64,000 nt of DNA from Streptomyces sp. KMM 9044 (GTDB lineage: Bacteria > Actinomycetota > Actinomycetes > Streptomycetales > Streptomycetaceae): assembly GCF_024701375.2 (NCBI RefSeq), contig NZ_CP113910.1:6076001-6140000 (forward strand), in the 5' to 3' direction. Position 1 is the stretch's first letter. Each line of letters opens with the position of its first letter. The notes under the pieces were generated by a model that worked only from the letters and a program-made list of their open reading frames with translations, ran no database searches and was not told the DNA's origin. This document shows positions 8,669 to 63,303 of this stretch, in pieces. A program made the translations under genes and the position numbers.

Positions 8669-12138
<3,470 letters not shown>

Positions 12139-55821: not shown

Positions 55822-56918
55822 GTGACCAGCGAGATCACCCTCTTCGCCAACCCCACCGCGGGTCGCGGCCGGGGCGTCCGAGCGGCGCGGCCGGCCGCTT
55901 GCGCGTTGCGCGCGGCCGTGCGCGCCGTGCCGTCGAGGAGAGCACCGGAGCCCTGGTCGCCGTCGGCGGCGACGGCATGGCGAACCTGGCCCTGCAGGTC
56001 GTGGTCGGCACCGGCACCCCGCTCGGCCTGATCGCCGTCGGCACGGGCACCCCGCTCGGCCTGATCGCCGTCGGCACGGGCACCCCGCTCGGCCTGATCG
56101 CCGTCGGCACGGGCACCCCGCTCGGCCTGATCGCCGTCGGCACGGGCACCCCGCTCGGCCTGATCGCCGTCGGCACGGGCACCCCGCTCGGCCTGATCGC
56201 CGTCGGCACGGGCACCCCGCTCGGCCTGATCGCCGTCGGCACGGGCACCCCGCTCGGCCTGATCGCCGTCGGCACCGGCAACGACTTCGCCCGCTCACTC
56301 GCCATGCCACTGAAGGAGTCGGCCGCGGCCGGCCGGATGATCGCCGACGCCCTCAAGTGCGGACGGGTACGCGACATCGACCTCGGTCGGGCCGGCGGCC
56401 GCCGGTTCGGTACCGTCCTCGCCTCCGGCTTCGACTCCCGCGTCAACGACCGCGGCAACCGGATGCGCCTGCCCGCGGGGCGTTTCACGTACGACCTCGC
56501 CGTGGTCGCCGCACTCGCGGCCCTGCGCCCGATCCCGTACCGGATCACCCTCGACGACGGCGACGTCCGCGAGGCCGAGGCGACGCTGGCCGCCGTCGGC
56601 AACGGAGCCTCGTACGGGGGCGGCATGCGGATCTGTCCGGGTGCCGACCTCACCGACGGGCTGTTCGACGTCACGGCGGTCGGCGACTGCGGCCGGGCCG
56701 CGCTGCGGATCTTTCCCACCGTGTACCGCGGAACACACGTCGGCCGGCCCGAGGTGAGCGTGTTCCGGGCGTCGCGGGTGGAGCCGACCGCCGAACAGGT
56801 CACCGGTTACGCGGACGGCGAACCGCTCGGGCCCCTGCCGCTGACCGCGAGCTGCGTACGCGGCGCGGTGCGGGTCGTGGGCCCCCGAGGGGCCGCGTCC
56901 GCTCCCGGATCCGGATAA
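55822..56918 (+). pseudogene. diacylglycerol/lipid kinase, broken by a deletion and a repeat expansion
   Basis: From GTG 55822 the family start ITLFANPTAGRGRGVRAA is read. At about 55915-55925 the frame is lost; coding continues one frame away from ARRAVEESTGALVAVGGDGM (GGDG nucleotide motif). Roughly 20 residues normally between the two parts are missing. The phrase GTGTPLGLIAV is then present eight times instead of once before GTGNDFARS, adding about 77 residues inside the active-site domain. The C-terminal half (VLASGFDSRVNDRGNRMRLPAGRF, GNGASYGGGMRICPGADLTDGLFDV) is intact to TAA 56918. A separate product could start at ATG 55899 but would lack the N-terminal strand. Most likely inactive. 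Confidence 0.8.
56007..56270 (+). repeat. eight 33-bp tandem repeats in the lipid-kinase gene
   Basis: Eight head-to-tail copies, 33 bp each, starting at GGC 56007. Each encodes GTGTPLGLIAV; the first copy differs by one synonymous base (ACC for ACG). Near identity implies recent expansion. The array ends exactly where GTGNDF, itself sharing the GTG start, follows. Confidence 0.97.
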
Positions 56919-56962: not shown

Positions 56963-59773
56963 ATGACAGAGCACCTCTCACCGGCCGAGCGGTACGCGGC
57001 AGCACGCAGGCGCGCTGCCGAGCAGGCCACCGCACTCGCCTCCTTCCGCGAGATGTATGACTTCGGCCTCGACCCCTTCCAGATCGAGGCCTGCCAGGCG
57101 CTCGAAGCGGGGAAGGGCGTGCTGGTGGCCGCGCCCACCGGCTCGGGCAAGACGATCGTCGGCGAGTTCGCCGTCCACCTGGCCCTCCAACAGGGCAAGA
57201 AGTGCTTCTACACGACGCCCATCAAGGCGCTGTCGAACCAGAAGTACGCCGACCTGTGCCGCCGCTACGGCGCCGACAAGGTCGGCCTGCTCACCGGCGA
57301 CAACAGTGTCAACTCCGGTGCCCCCGTGGTCGTGATGACCACCGAGGTGCTGCGGAACATGCTGTACGCGGGCTCGCAGACGCTCCTCGGCCTCGGGTAC
57401 GTGGTGATGGACGAGGTGCACTACCTCTCCGACCGCTTCCGGGGCGCCGTCTGGGAGGAAGTGATCATCCACCTCCCCGAGTCGGTGACCCTGGTGTCCC
57501 TCTCGGCGACGGTGTCGAACGCGGAGGAGTTCGGCGACTGGCTGGACACCGTCCGCGGCCACACCGAGGTCATCGTCTCCGAGCACCGGCCCGTGCCGCT
57601 GTTCCAGCACGTACTCGCCGGGCGCCGGATCTACGACCTGTTCGAGGAGGGCGAGGGCCAGAAGAAGGCCGTCAACCCCGACCTCACGCGGATGGCCCGG
57701 ATGGAGGCGACCCGCCCGGCGTGGGGCGACCGGCGCCGCGGCCGGAACATGCGCGAGGCGGACCGGGAGCGGGAACGCAGACAGCGCACGCGGGTCTGGA
57801 CGCCGGGCCGGCCCGAGGTGATCGAGCGGCTCGACGCCCAGGGCCTGCTGCCCGCCATCACCTTCATCTTCAGCCGCGCAGCCTGCGAGGCCGCCGTCCA
57901 GCAGTGCCTGTACGCGGGGCTGCGGCTCAACGACGACCGGGCGAGGGAGCAGGTCCGCTCCCTCGTCGAGGAGCGCACCGCCTCCATCCCCACCGAGGAC
58001 CTGCACGTCCTCGGCTACTACGAGTGGCTGGAGGGTCTGGAGCGCGGCATAGCGGCCCACCACGCGGGCATGCTGCCGACGTTCAAGGAGGTCGTCGAGG
58101 AGCTGTTCGTCCGCGGTCTGGTCAAGGCGGTCTTCGCGACCGAGACCCTCGCCCTGGGCATCAACATGCCCGCCCGCTCGGTGGTGCTGGAGAAGCTTGT
58201 CAAGTGGAACGGCGAGCAGCACGCCGACATCACCCCCGGCGAGTACACCCAGCTGACCGGCCGGGCCGGCCGGCGCGGCATCGATGTCGAGGGCCATGCG
58301 GTCGTGCTGTGGCAGCGCGGCATGAACCCCGAGCACCTCGCGGGGCTGGCCGGCACCCGCACCTACCCGTTGCGCTCCAGCTTCAGGCCGTCGTACAACA
58401 TGGCGGTCAACCTGGTCGAGCAGTTCGGCCGGCACCGCTCGCGCGAGCTGCTGGAGACGTCGTTCGCCCAGTTCCAGGCGGACCGTTCGGTGGTCGGCAT
58501 CTCGCGGCAGGTGCAGCGCAACGAGGAGGGCCTCGAGGGCTACCAGGCCTCCATGACGTGCCACCTCGGCGACTTCGAGGAGTATGCGCGGCTGCGCCGC
58601 GACCTGAAGGACCGGGAGACGGAGCTGGCCCGCCAGGGCGCGGCCCAGCGGCGCGCGGAGGCGGCCGTCGCCCTGGAGAAGCTCAAGCCCGGCGACATCA
58701 TCCACGTACCCGCAGGCAAGTACGCCGGGCTGGCGCTGGTCCTCGACCCGGGCCTGCCCGCGGGCCGTGCGGGCGGCCACCGCGGCGTCGAGTACCACGA
58801 CGGGCCGCGCCCCCTGGTGCTGACCGCGGAGCGGCAGGTCAAGCGGCTGGCGTCGATCGACTTCCCGGCGCCCGTCGAGGCGCTGGAGCGGATGCGGATC
58901 CCGAAGTCGTTCAACGCGCGCTCGCCGCAGTCCCGCCGCGACCTGGCCTCCGCGCTGCGGACCAAGGCCGGGCACATCGAGCCGGAGCGGCACCGCAAGC
59001 GGCGCTCCCAGGCGGCCGACGACCGGGAGATCGACCGGCTGCGCAAGGCGATCCGTGCCCACCCGTGCCACGGCTGCGACGACCGGGAGGACCACGCCCG
59101 CTGGGCCGAGCGCTACCACCGGTTGCGGCGGGACACCAAGCAGCTGGAGCGGCGCATCGAGGGCCGGACGAACACCATCGCCCGTACCTTCGACCGTATC
59201 GTCGCCCTGCTGACCGAGCTGGACTACCTGCGCGGCGACGAGGTCACCGAGCACGGCAAGCGGCTCGCCCGGCTGTACGGCGAACTCGACCTACTGGCCA
59301 GCGAATGCCTGCGGGAGGGCGTCTGGGAGCAGCTCGGCCCGGCCGAACTCGCCGCCTGTGTCTCGGCCCTGGTGTACGAGGCCCGGGTCAGCGACGACGC
59401 GGTGGTGCCCAAGGTGCCCTCCGGCGGGGCGAAGGCCGCGCTCGGTGAGACGGTCCGCATCTGGGGGCGGCTGGACGCCCTGGAGGAGGACTTCCGGATC
59501 ACCCAGACCGAGGGTGTGGGCCAGCGTGAACCCGACCTCGGCTTCGCCTGGGCCGCCTACATGTGGGCATCCGGCAAGGGCCTCGACGAGGTGCTGCGCG
59601 AGGTGGAGATGCCGGCGGGGGACTTCGTGCGCTGGTGCAAGCAGGTCATCGACGTCCTCGGCCAGATCTCGGCCGCGGCTCCGGCGGTGGAGGGCTCCAC
59701 GGTCGCGAAGAACGCCCGCAAGGCGGTCGACGGACTGCTGCGCGGAGTGGTGGCCTACTCGTCCGTGGGGTGA
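56963..59773 (+). CDS. helY: Ski2/Mtr4-type DEAD/DEAH RNA helicase (HelY-like)
   Basis: A 936-residue helicase; ATG 56963 is preferred (family start LSPAERYAAARRR). ATG 56918, overlapping the kinase stop as TAATG, is possible. Motif I APTGSGKT (57-64), TTPIKALSNQK, motif II MDEVHYLSD, motif III SLSATVSNAEEFGDWL, motif V ATETLALGINMPAR, motif VI QLTGRAGRRGID. The long C-terminal DSHCT domain (YMWASGKGLDEVLREVEMPAGDFVRWCKQVID) is complete. Probable RNA remodelling or decay role. Confidence 0.94.
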   Translation: MTEHLSPAERYAAARRRAAEQATALASFREMYDFGLDPFQIEACQALEAGKGVLVAAPTGSGKTIVGEFAVHLALQQGKKCFYTTPIKALSNQKYADLCRRYGADKVGLLTGDNSVNSGAPVVVMTTEVLRNMLYAGSQTLLGLGYVVMDEVHYLSDRFRGAVWEEVIIHLPESVTLVSLSATVSNAEEFGDWLDTVRGHTEVIVSEHRPVPLFQHVLAGRRIYDLFEEGEGQKKAVNPDLTRMARMEATRPAWGDRRRGRNMREADRERERRQRTRVWTPGRPEVIERLDAQGLLPAITFIFSRAACEAAVQQCLYAGLRLNDDRAREQVRSLVEERTASIPTEDLHVLGYYEWLEGLERGIAAHHAGMLPTFKEVVEELFVRGLVKAVFATETLALGINMPARSVVLEKLVKWNGEQHADITPGEYTQLTGRAGRRGIDVEGHAVVLWQRGMNPEHLAGLAGTRTYPLRSSFRPSYNMAVNLVEQFGRHRSRELLETSFAQFQADRSVVGISRQVQRNEEGLEGYQASMTCHLGDFEEYARLRRDLKDRETELARQGAAQRRAEAAVALEKLKPGDIIHVPAGKYAGLALVLDPGLPAGRAGGHRGVEYHDGPRPLVLTAERQVKRLASIDFPAPVEALERMRIPKSFNARSPQSRRDLASALRTKAGHIEPERHRKRRSQAADDREIDRLRKAIRAHPCHGCDDREDHARWAERYHRLRRDTKQLERRIEGRTNTIARTFDRIVALLTELDYLRGDEVTEHGKRLARLYGELDLLASECLREGVWEQLGPAELAACVSALVYEARVSDDAVVPKVPSGGAKAALGETVRIWGRLDALEEDFRITQTEGVGQREPDLGFAWAAYMWASGKGLDEVLREVEMPAGDFVRWCKQVIDVLGQISAAAPAVEGSTVAKNARKAVDGLLRGVVAYSSVG

Positions 59774-59805
59774 CGGCGGACGGGTCCGGCCCGTCCCCCA
59801 CCGGT

Positions 59806-59838
59806 GAAGCCCGGCGCGCTCGGTGCGCGCCGGGCTTC
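59806..59838 (+). terminator. terminator after the helicase gene
   Basis: Perfect 14-bp stem (59806-59819 with 59825-59838), 5-nt loop. Confidence 0.8.
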
Positions 59839-60243
59839 CGCGCCCCCCCCAGCGCCCCGCCGGCAACAGGACCGGATGATTCCGCGGCCGTCGGCCGCGT
59901 ACTTCACCCTTCACAGTGAGTGAGTTTCGCACATCCATGCGCCGTCACCGATTGTGTGCGAATGGACTCCGCGCGTGCAAAAGGGCTCGAGCGCACTCCC
60001 TGCCCCAGGGGTCGTTTCCGGCACTTGCCGAAGATGGCACGACGTTGATCCTGTCGGCCTAAGCCCGCCCGCAGCGCACCGTTTTGGGGTGAATTCGTGC
60101 GCCTGTTCCCTGTTGTGCGGATGGGTCCCGCGATTTCCCGGTCCGTCCCCACCCGCACGTCCCCGACCACCAGCCGATTCGTTTTCAGAGGCCTACAGGG
60201 TGAGTGTCCAGTCCCCACCCGGTCGACGTGAACTTCCCTCCGC
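59839..60243 (+). other. non-coding stretch upstream of the conservon remnant
   Basis: No gene seen. An 8-bp inverted repeat TTCGCACA/TGTGCGAA at 59926-59933 and 59955-59962 may be a regulatory site. The expected sensor-kinase gene (rarA-type, several hundred codons, nitrate-sensing and HATPase domains) is absent: no frame here contains an HATPase N or G box. A short frame from about 60098 to 60231 is unlike known proteins. Confidence 0.6.
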
Positions 60244-60612
60244 GTGCGTGCTGTTGCTGCCGGCCATGCTGATATGACCATGGTGCTCTCTGCCGACGGC
60301 CTGCGCATCGCCCGCTTCGGCGGCGAGCCGGTCGCCGCCGACCGGGTCGCCGCCACCTGTGCCGGCGTGCAGAGCCTTGCCGGTGCCGTCGCCGGGGAAC
60401 TTCCGCGCAGCGACGGCGAAATGAAAATGGTGGTCATCGAGATCAACGGCGGCTACTTCTACCTGATGGCCGCCGGCGCCAACGCCTATCTCGCGGTGCT
60501 CTCCGACATGACCTGTGAACCCGGGCGGACGGGGGCCATGATGCGCGACCTCGTCGTCCGTATCGGCGCCCACCTCACCAGCCCGCCCCGCCGGAACGGG
60601 ACGACCGTATGA
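60244..60612 (+). CDS. rarB: roadblock/LC7 protein, RarB-like, probably N-terminally truncated
   Basis: A 122-codon frame from GTG 60244. MTMVLSADGLRIARFGGEPVAADRVAATCAGVQSLAGAV, MVVIEINGGYFYLMAAGANAYLAVL and MMRDLVVRIGAHL give a roadblock/LC7 fold of Cvn conservons, which regulate the partner GTPase. Other RarB/CvnB proteins carry about 30 more residues before the VLSADGL strand (a WLLDDLVxRVPGV-type helix). Here an in-frame stop at 60229-60231 and unrelated sequence replace it. It is followed by the DUF742 gene with an ATGA overlap. It may be a defective first survivor of the operon. Confidence 0.78.
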   Translation: MRAVAAGHADMTMVLSADGLRIARFGGEPVAADRVAATCAGVQSLAGAVAGELPRSDGEMKMVVIEINGGYFYLMAAGANAYLAVLSDMTCEPGRTGAMMRDLVVRIGAHLTSPPRRNGTTV

Positions 60613-61016
60613 CTCCTCCGCAACGTCAGAGGCGCTCTCCGCAGGAGGCCCCTCCTCCGCCACCGGCCACGGACAAGACGGAGGACGAACGGCCCAACCC
60701 GGAGCGGCTGTACGTCGTCACCGGCGCGGACGGGAACCGCGCGGACCTCGACCCCGTGACGCTGATCGTGGCGCGCGTCGAGGATCCCCCGCGCTCCGCC
60801 ACGCCGGAGCAGGCGGCACTGCTCCGGCTCTGTGCCGCCCCCCTGTCCGTGGCCGAACTCTCGGCCTGCCTCAGCCTGCCGTTCGGCGTGGTGACCGTAC
60901 TGCTCACCGAGATGCTGGCGGCGGAACTGGTGCAGGCGCGCTCCCCGATCGTCCGGAAGGCGCTCCCCGACCGTTCCCTTCTCGAAACGGTGATGCATGG
61001 ACTCCAAAGGCTCTGA
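60609..61016 (+). CDS. rarC: DUF742 protein, RarC/CvnC-like
   Basis: A 135-residue protein whose ATG overlaps the rarB-like stop. PERLYVVTGADGNRADLDPVTLIVAR, SVAELSACLSLPFGVVTVLLTEMLAAELVQAR (winged-helix-like) and DRSLLETVMHGLQRL are the complete DUF742 signature. Third component of the conservon, normally acting with the kinase, roadblock protein and GTPase at the membrane. Intact. Overlaps the GTPase gene by 20 bp. Confidence 0.92.
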   Translation: MTPPQRQRRSPQEAPPPPPATDKTEDERPNPERLYVVTGADGNRADLDPVTLIVARVEDPPRSATPEQAALLRLCAAPLSVAELSACLSLPFGVVTVLLTEMLAAELVQARSPIVRKALPDRSLLETVMHGLQRL

Positions 61017-61413
61017 GACAGTCCCGGGCCCACGGACCGAGGGCCGGCTGCCGCACACGGCCGAGGCCGCGGCGAAGATCGTGATCGTGGGTGGCTTCGG
61101 GGTCGGCAAGACGACCATGGCCGGGTCGGTCAGTGAGATCAAACCGCTGACCACCGAGGAGACCATGCCCCAGGCCGGCGTCGGAGTCGACGACAACTTC
61201 GGTTCCGCGTCGAAGACGGCCACCACGGTGGCCATGGACTTCAGCCACGTCAAGATCACCGAACGGCTGGTGCTCTACCTGGGGCCGGCTCACCGCCCGT
61301 CGCCGGCTGGAACCGCAGGACGACTTCGCCAGCCATCTCATCACCCACCCACCCACCCACCCACCCACCCACCCACCCACCCACCCACCCACCCACCCAC
61401 CCGGCCGGACTGA
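60997..61413 (+). pseudogene. rarD: conservon GTPase (RarD-like), truncated after about 95 residues
   Basis: From ATG 60997: AAKIVIVGGFGVGKTTMAGSVSEI carries the P-loop GGFGVGKTT, then PLTTEETMPQAGVGVDDNFGS (switch I) and KITERLVLYL. The next expected residues, FGTPGQERF (switch II) and all of the NTFPD-type guanine-specificity region, are absent. After Leu at 61279-61281 the DNA becomes cytochrome P450 sequence in another frame, and this frame continues through Pro-Thr-His repeats to a stop at 61413. A deletion joined rarD to rarE. Not a working GTPase. Confidence 0.88.
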
Positions 61414-62281
61414 CCGACGACGAGGTCAGGGAGCACCTGCGGGTGGTGCTCATCGCCGCCTACGAGTCGACCGCCAACCTCCTCGCCAACGTGCTGCGGA
61501 CGGTGCTCGTCGCTCCGCGCTTCCGGGCCCAGCTCAACGCCGGCCAGATGACCGTGCCGGAGGCCGTGGAGCAACTGCTGTGGTGCGAGCCGCCGTTCAG
61601 CACCATCTTCGCCTACTTCGCCAAACAGGAGACGGAACTCGGCGGCCGGCGCATCCGCCGGGGCGACGGACTGCTGCTCGCCCCGGCCCGGTCAACGTGG
61701 ACCTGCGGGTACGCCCGGACCCGACCGCCCACCTGCAGGGCAACCGCTCCCACCTGGCCTTCAGCGGCGGTCCGCGCGAGTGCCCCGGGCAGGACATCGG
61801 GCGTGCCATCGCCGAGACCGGCGTCGACGTGCTGCTGATGCGGCTGTCCGACCTCGAACTCGACGTCGACGCCGAGGATCTGCGCCACACCGAGCCGATC
61901 GCCTCACGTCATCTGGGCGAGCTGCCGGTCGGTTCACGCCCAGGCCGCCGCAGGACATCACCGAGCGGCCGAACCACGACGCCCAGCCGACGGCCCCGCG
62001 CCGCGACTGGCACGTCGGCAGCTCCGCACCGGGGGAGCCGGCACCGCCGTCCACCACCCGCCCCGATCCGTTCGGGCACCACGACGTCCCCGCCCCGCGG
62101 CCCGTGGAGCCGGACGGGACACCGGAGTCACGGCCGGGTCCAGAGTCGGCAACCCGGTCGGCCGAACCACCGGCCGCCGCCGGCCCTGCGGAACCGGCCC
62201 GCGCCGGGCGTCTGGCAGCGCTTCCTGCGCTGGTGGCGCGGCTACTGGCCAGAGGCGAGGGGGGCTGAGGGCGGCCCGTGA
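61283..62281 (+). pseudogene. rarE: cytochrome P450 (RarE-like) remnant, N-terminus deleted and multiply frameshifted
   Basis: Homology to conservon P450s begins abruptly at 61283 (RLTARRRLEPQDDFASHLITHP), in the middle of the protein. It is broken by a CCCA tract, then continues in a second frame (GLTDDEVREHL, LIAAYESTANLLANVLR with the I-helix AYExT). It shifts again near 61690 (PVNVDLRVRPD) to the heme-binding FSGGPRECPGQDIGRAI, where Cys is the expected haem ligand. It shifts once more near 61925 into an Ala/Pro-rich tail. The first roughly 200 residues are missing. Clearly a relic. Its 3' end overlaps the RluA gene by 40 bp. Confidence 0.85.
61342..61402 (+). repeat. tetranucleotide repeat (CCCA)~15
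   Basis: About 61 bp of uninterrupted CCCA units sit at the P450 codons for His-Pro in LITHP-(A)GLTDDE. A tetranucleotide changes frame with each unit gained or lost. It contributes one of the frame changes in the P450 remnant. Confidence 0.95.
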
Positions 62282-63303
62282 GCAGCGGACCGGGCCGTGG
62301 TGGTCCGCGCCTCGGCGGTCCGGCCGTCTGGAGCGCGGTCGCCGTCGGCACGGTCGTCCGCGGCCCAGTCCTCGTACGACGTCCACGCCGTGAGCGTCCG
62401 GCCACTGCGCAACCGGTGCCGTGCCCCCGTCACCGGGTCGGTGAACTCCAATGCCCGCGCGAGCAGTTGCAAAGGGTGCCGGAAGTCACCGGCCGGGACG
62501 GGGCCGGTCACCTCCGGATACAGGGGGTCGCCGAGGATCGGCACGCCCAGGGCGTTCATGTGTACCCGCAGCTGATGGGTCTGCCCGGTGCCGGGCACCA
62601 GCCGGTACCGGGCGAGGCCGTCGGCCCGGTGGACCAGGAGCTCGACCCGGCTGAGCGCGTTCGGCTCGCCCTCGACCTCGCGGGCGGCCAGCACTCCATG
62701 CTCCTTCACGATCCGGCTGCGCACGGTCCGGGGCAGGGTGAGCGCCGGATCGTGGGGCGCGACGGCCTCGTACTCCTTGTGGATCAGCCGGTCGCGGAAC
62801 AGCGTCTGGTACGCGCCCCGCTCCTCCGGCCGCACGGTGAACAGCACCAGCCCGGCGGTGAGCCGGTCGAGACGGTGCGCGGCGCCCAGCAGCGGGATAT
62901 CCAGCTCGCGGCGCAGCCGGGCCAGCGCGGTCTCGGCGACATGGCTGCCGCGCGGGGTGGTGGCCAGGAAGTGGGGCTTGTCGGCGACGACGATGTGCTC
63001 GTCCCGGTACACGATCTCCAGCGGGAACGGCACCGGCACCTCGGCCGGCAGCTCCCGGTGGAACCACACGAACAGTCCTGGCACACAGGGGGCGTCGGCC
63101 GGCACGGGCCGCCCGTCCGCGCCCACGATCAGTCCCGCGTCGAACATGGCGTCGACGACACCGGAGCCGGCCGGGAGCCGGGCCACGAGATGGTCCCGCA
63201 CGGTGGCCCACGCCCCCGCGCCGGGCAGCCGCACCCGCACCGGGTCCACACCGTCGCGCTGCGGCAGCGGGGAGGGCGGGACGGTCCTGCGTCTGCGGGT
63301 CAC
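62242..63303 (-). CDS. RluA-family RNA pseudouridine synthase
   Basis: A 353-residue enzyme isomerising uridine in RNA. S4-like start is weak; catalytic region: EHIVVADKPHFLATTPRGSHVAETALARLRRELDIPLLGAAHRLDRLTAGLVLF with catalytic Asp in HRLDRLTAG. Later LIHKEYEAV, GTGQTHQLRVHMNALGVPILGDPLYP are typical. The tail (from about 320) is Ala/Asp/Arg low-complexity and overlaps the P450 relic. Target RNA not predictable. Confidence 0.93.
   Translation of the reverse strand: MTRRRRTVPPSPLPQRDGVDPVRVRLPGAGAWATVRDHLVARLPAGSGVVDAMFDAGLIVGADGRPVPADAPCVPGLFVWFHRELPAEVPVPFPLEIVYRDEHIVVADKPHFLATTPRGSHVAETALARLRRELDIPLLGAAHRLDRLTAGLVLFTVRPEERGAYQTLFRDRLIHKEYEAVAPHDPALTLPRTVRSRIVKEHGVLAAREVEGEPNALSRVELLVHRADGLARYRLVPGTGQTHQLRVHMNALGVPILGDPLYPEVTGPVPAGDFRHPLQLLARALEFTDPVTGARHRLRSGRTLTAWTSYEDWAADDRADGDRAPDGRTAEARTTTARSAAHGPPSAPLASGQ

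Follow-up and report, generated by a model that had tools for sequence, protein, structure and literature searches.

The window analysed here is a stretch of 64,000 nucleotides (C1:6076001-6140000) of a 7.43-Mb Streptomyces genome assembled into 3 contigs and 99.94% complete. Conservon remnants were found at window positions 60200-62248, between a helicase gene and a pseudouridine synthase gene. This locus is very probably a pseudogenised conservon that, by synteny, would be the ortholog of cvn9/rarABCDE. The features of the region, in order, are as follows.

56963..59773, plus strand: DEAD/DSHCT helicase gene, intact; Pfam DSHCT and DEAD; HelY by synteny with SCO1631; control gene
59774..60199, plus strand: upstream region of rarA, kept but diverged, with AGG as the codon at 60197-60199
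60200..60277, plus strand: rarA (kinase) relic of about 25 codons, then TGA; rarA residues 1-28 matched
60273..60274, no strand: deletion junction 1; 1614 bp of the reference locus L053 (8052-9665) gone
60274..60612, plus strand: truncated rarB (roadblock), an open frame without the N-terminus
60609..61016, plus strand: rarC (DUF742), a full-length open frame, drifting (L49P, Y87C, A127T)
60997..61281, plus strand: rarD (GTPase) codons 1-95; the frame then continues into foreign sequence
61281..61282, no strand: deletion junction 2; 1034 bp of L053 (10674-11707) gone, out of frame
61282..62248, plus strand: rarE (P450) relic from codon 218 onward; frame changes +52, -1, -1 and -2, plus an in-phase loss of 15
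61342..61402, no strand: (CACC)15.2 tandem array inside the rarE relic, just past junction 2
62242..63303, minus strand: pseudouridine synthase gene, intact; Pfam PseudoU_synth_2; control gene; 3' end overlapping the rarE relic

Three further repeats were observed in the window. A 33-bp tandem array (56004-56280; 8.4 copies, 99% matches) consisted of copies that align to one single stretch in S. hirsutus, Streptomyces sp. NWU339 and a further relative (G026). A hexanucleotide array of CCTGTG lay at 9678-9917 (40 copies, 90% matches), and a perfect 148-bp tandem duplication of two copies at 63759-64055 extended beyond the window end.

Identity of the conservon

Pfam matches were obtained at the places where the first-pass annotation had put a roadblock protein, a DUF742 protein, a GTPase N-terminus and a P450 remnant. 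The roadblock domain of the truncated rarB was matched (1.8e-17) only from profile position 13, and DUF742 in rarC was matched over the full profile length (1.8e-29). The rarD remnant is a GTPase N-terminus with the P-loop GGFGVGKTT (ATP_bind_1, 27.4 bits, cut-off 27), and the rarE remnant gave a weak P450 match (0.0063). NCBIfam returned no match at all for the three window remnants, and the conservon proteins of S. hirsutus stayed below its cut-offs; a search of solved structures for relatives of rarE returned only general P450s.

In S. coelicolor, rarA, rarB, rarC and rarE are given as SCO1630, SCO1629, SCO1628 and SCO1626, with the helicase HelY, SCO1631, as the neighbour (PMC4021200, PMC3897704, PMC7157823). 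P450 genes are described as belonging to conservons 9-12 (PMC8510531), and the same source reports that disruption of cvn1, cvn9 or cvn10 has pleiotropic effects on specialised metabolism and, for cvn9, names development as affected too (PMC8510531). The window locus resembles cvn9/rarABCDE of S. coelicolor (SCO1630-SCO1626) in gene order and in the neighbouring helicase: a P450 remnant lies downstream of the GTPase remnant, and the DSHCT/DEAD helicase gene lies directly upstream of the locus. However, the kinase and most of the GTPase are missing from the window locus, its P450 is out of frame, and its remaining frames are under relaxed selection. The K-helix of the rarE relic, like that of S. 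hirsutus rarE, is EQLLW, without the EXXR arginine. This resembles EQSLW and EQILW, the forms given for CYP157C among conservon-linked CYP157 P450s without that arginine (PMC3599690); the K-helix was the single feature of the family compared, and the window keeps such a P450 only from codon 218 onward, and frameshifted. By synteny, the decayed locus would be cvn9/rar, an assignment that rests on synteny and the K-helix motif, with S. coelicolor compared by gene labels.

A conservon is defined by genes for a HATPase-type membrane kinase, a roadblock protein, a DUF742 protein and a small GTPase in this order. The window locus does not hold this set and, as read from its sequence, is a decayed conservon and not a working one.

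Whole operons among the relatives

In S. hirsutus NRRL B-2713 (L039 and L054, the same contig), rarA to rarE were present as whole open frames of 544, 135, 135, 206 and 530 codons in the order kinase, roadblock, DUF742, GTPase and P450, which is the full conservon arrangement, and rarE gave a Pfam p450 match of 26.1 bits (cut-off 22.8). The operon was likewise whole in Streptomyces sp. TP-A0873 (L053), and in both strains it was flanked by the same helicase and pseudouridine synthase genes as in the window, with about 94% DNA identity to the window from rarB to rarD. In contrast to these two loci, the window locus is shorter by 1614 and 1034 bp (against L053) and carries smaller lesions in addition.

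A GTDB scan gave 120 loci encoding a relative of the window DUF742 protein, and the best 80 of the 120 were kept and searched by tblastn with the S. hirsutus proteins. Among these, rarA was full length (at least 540 of 546 residues) in 76 of 80; the exceptions were three contig ends (L063, L073, L078) and L079, with a frame break in the C-terminal tail. The rarB gene was full in 78 (exceptions: L058, split in a locus with 2327 Ns, and L078 at its contig end) and rarD in 76 (contig ends L055, L077 and L121, and L084, which is without codons 99-139). A single rarE match of at least 420 codons was obtained in 73; five exceptions lay at or near contig ends (L055, L077, L084, L097, L121), L058 was split, and the remaining one was L110 (Streptomyces sp. 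NRRL F-525). The latter had been a candidate for a locus without rarE, since its tblastn match was missing, yet translation gave an open P450 frame. No stop codons were found in the best matches of rarA-E in the 80 relatives. Single-gene lesions do occur in other draft genomes (L079, L084), but none was seen like the window arrangement. In the draft assembly of Streptomyces sp. GKU 895 (L079, 8012-9591) the rarA frame is broken after about residue 413, and in Streptomyces africanus (L084, 10640-11002) the rarD gap lies near a contig end with terminal bases that resemble a fold-back, perhaps an assembly fault.

A 26-base pattern across junction 2 was searched, with up to 3 mismatches allowed, in 391 other Streptomyces genomes that sample the genus; a more diverged junction would escape such a search. 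No genome had the exact pattern. There were 8 near matches in 6 of the 391 genomes, each differing at 2 or 3 positions, and the 7 loci examined among them held no rar match; a short form common to relatives was dropped as a candidate. When 150 genomes, the window genome included, were searched with the whole region, a span in one piece was found, among the matches listed, only in the window genome. The first-pass annotation had held that relatives sharing the short arrangement would speak against decay; none shares it as far as was searched (80 loci, 391 genomes).

Lesions of the locus

The lesions were read against TP-A0873, the nearest lineage found (helicase dS 0.057, vs 0.113 to S. hirsutus). 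The stretch 59701-60273, which includes the rarA upstream region, showed 88% identity to TP-A0873. The rarA start codon, which is ATG in 77 of 77 readable relatives among the 80 loci, has become the AGG noted above. Junction 1 (60273|60274) removed the body of rarA together with the first 22 or 23 codons of rarB, the number varying with the position assigned to the break. The rarA relic runs into TGA at 60275-60277, and the first in-frame ATG of the truncated rarB (60274) overlaps this stop as ATGA. The earlier statement that no kinase gene lies upstream was correct in that no kinase gene is left, but the relic of about 25 rarA codons, with its start mutated, had been overlooked.

Junction 2 (61281|61282) is an out-of-frame fusion of rarD codon 95 with the third base of rarE codon 218. 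The cut of the GTPase at 61281 was placed correctly, with 95 codons left in rarD vs 206 in S. hirsutus, and the P450 homology begins mid-protein at the junction, as had been claimed. Past junction 2 the rarD frame reads through the CACC array and gains 43 foreign codons before the stop at 61411-61413 ends it. The array has 15.2 copies in the window vs 2 at the same place in TP-A0873 and S. hirsutus, a gain of 52 bp, and a 25-base run of it had no other occurrence in the genome. The rarE relic has 1-base deletions after 61686 and after 61929; these lie within or next to runs of C and may be errors of sequencing. The variable tail at the rarE C-terminus has lost 15 bases and 2 bases, the 2-base loss lying after 62203, and the rarE stop has been lost by a change of TGA to TGG at 62246-62248. 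Against TP-A0873, the frame changes of the P450 remnant bear out the earlier count of at least three. Alignment to the whole operons of TP-A0873 and S. hirsutus also confirmed the two deletions that had been proposed, one of rarA with the 5' end of rarB and the other of the rarD-rarE middle. The two deletions, the start loss, the frameshifts and the stop loss are disabling lesions without counterpart in the relatives.

Translocation of the lost pieces was considered and rejected: both deleted stretches, taken from S. hirsutus, were searched across the genome and gave diverged paralogs only. No close copy was found in the genome: the best matches reached 69% across about 400 bp and 72% across 293 bp, and shorter paralogous stretches up to 92% across 35 bp.

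Drift of the remnants

Synonymous and nonsynonymous changes (S:N) were counted on the window and TP-A0873 branches with Streptomyces sp. NWU339 (L056) as the outgroup and compared by Fisher test. On the window branch S:N was 4:7 for rarB, 5:5 for rarC, 3:10 for the rarD part and 8:12 for the rarE part; on the TP-A0873 branch the values were 5:0, 2:1, 4:0 and 5:1. Pooled over rarB-E, the window (20:34) differed from TP-A0873 (16:2) with p 2.4e-4. The window's flanking genes gave 20:1 (helicase) and 9:2 (pseudouridine synthase), and the pooled 29:3 differed from the 20:34 of rarB-E with p 1e-6. Taken gene by gene, window vs TP-A0873 gave p 0.034 for rarB, 1.0 for rarC, 0.015 for the rarD part and 0.16 for the rarE part, so that S:N was not significant for rarC alone (5:5 vs 2:1) or for the rarE part alone; in whole relatives rarC evolves fairly fast (dN/dS 0.37-0.45). 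When S. hirsutus (L054) replaced TP-A0873, the conservon gave 29:43 vs 18:4 (p 0.0012), and the flanking genes of the window gave 57:9. In the flanking genes it was TP-A0873 (23:14) that had relatively more nonsynonymous change than the window (29:3; p 0.01). The excess in the conservon is therefore no general trait of the window lineage.

We also counted changes at near-invariant residues, defined as alignment columns with 98% or more conservation among the relatives. In the window 5/65 were changed in rarB, 3/45 in rarC, 6/66 in the rarD part and 7/99 in the rarE part, 21/275 in total. The corresponding counts in relatives were 0/275 in TP-A0873, 1/276 in S. hirsutus, 2/277 in NWU339 and 0/275 in a fourth locus (L061). 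In the two flanking genes 2/891 were changed in the window and 4/893 in TP-A0873. The description of rarC as intact held for its reading frame but not for its residues, three of the near-invariant ones (L49P, Y87C, A127T) being changed. Pooled, the remnants have outpaced both their counterparts in relatives and the window's own flanking genes in amino-acid change, and selection on the remaining sequence, pooled over rarB-E, is relaxed.

Alternative explanations

It is improbable, in our view, that the locus is a reduced working module that still produces truncated RarB and RarC, both acting on one of the ten remaining conservons. Such a module would agree with the open frames of rarB and rarC, with the conservation of the rarA upstream region at 88% and with the in-frame ATG that overlaps the relic stop. 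However, recent decay would also leave both frames open. RarB lacks its N-terminus and the rarA start codon is lost, and the near-invariant residues changed in rarB and rarC compare with 0 in each of TP-A0873, S. hirsutus, NWU339 and L061. The S:N of rarB also differs from that of TP-A0873, although that of rarC does not. More improbable still is an error of assembly or sequencing, by which the whole rar operon would really be present and the short form would result from a misjoin and wrong base calls. It is true that two indels are single C bases at C runs, and the CACC array is hard to sequence, but a misjoin cannot produce an S:N of 20:34 or 21 near-invariant changes; moreover, both flanking genes are open and conserved, and the assembly contains no close copy of the deleted DNA. 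Because the remnants show the amino-acid excess and the near-invariant changes, an artefact was rejected as the full explanation.

The position of the 15.2-copy tetranucleotide array just past junction 2 raises the idea of a phase-variable gene, in which the CACC copy number would switch a GTPase-P450 fusion on and off, and some copy numbers would bring the P450 frame into phase with the GTPase. This is barely credible: the 1-base deletion after 61686 lies downstream of the array and upstream of the haem-cysteine region and, unless it is a sequencing error, breaks the frame at any copy number, and on this ground phase variation was rejected. The fusion would also be without 217 P450 codons and the rear GTPase half, and each piece carries changes at near-invariant residues.

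In the preferred reading, that of a pseudogenised conservon, rar function would have been lost after the split from the TP-A0873 lineage, selection would have been lifted, and the pieces would now be drifting; the decay is known from one genome of the species. The locus cannot support rar signalling, having lost the kinase, the RarB N-terminus, the second half of the GTPase and the frame of the P450.

Other conservons of the genome

The genome has 11 DUF742 genes, including rarC of the decayed locus. The surroundings of the ten others were searched by tblastn with the S. hirsutus proteins, which matched a kinase in 10/10, a roadblock gene in 9/10 (not L149), DUF742 in 9/10 (not L151, where the gene was missed by tblastn and found by Pfam), a GTPase in 9/10 (not L146) and a P450 in 3/10 (L150, L152, L153). 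The cvnD gene of L146 (G000:C1:6439500-6446500), where the rarD reference matched no GTPase, may have diverged or be absent.

Absence of Ku and the deletion joins

The simplest reading of either junction is a join with no shared bases, and two or three shared bases followed by a later one-base change are also possible at each. Ku (PF02735) gave no match in the window genome, in S. hirsutus (G130) or in NWU339 (G142), the latter two being draft genomes; Ku-dependent end joining was considered as the deletion mechanism and was dropped because there is no Ku match in the genome. Ku was present in the next relatives (G131, G027, G132, G026) and in 40 of 40 other genomes sampled from the genus, order and class. 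At the place where G131 carries Ku together with a ketoacyl-synthase gene (L170, 4740-8742), about 4 kb is missing in all three Ku-less genomes and the flanks are nearly joined (G000:C1:2305595-2305873 in the window genome). The pattern is most simply read as a loss of Ku in the common ancestor of the window genome, S. hirsutus and NWU339. It is possible, and on balance unlikely, that Ku was lost in this clade before the rar deletions and that the blunt joins reflect a Ku-independent end joining which shapes gene loss.

Meaning of the decayed locus

A literature search for conservon and pseudogene found no paper, and a wider search returned, among the matches listed, none naming a conservon. 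The locus is a decayed member of a known operon family, a real and well-supported case of ordinary gene decay. The missing Ku may merit more attention than the rar decay itself, and, if Ku-independent joining is real, blunt joins of this kind would shape gene loss in these Streptomyces. The locus is a natural knockout of the cvn9/rar conservon with clear boundaries, which can be compared with the whole operon of a close relative. It shows that a lineage can lose the rar operon and keep ten other conservons, although nearly all relatives examined carry this operon whole or almost whole.
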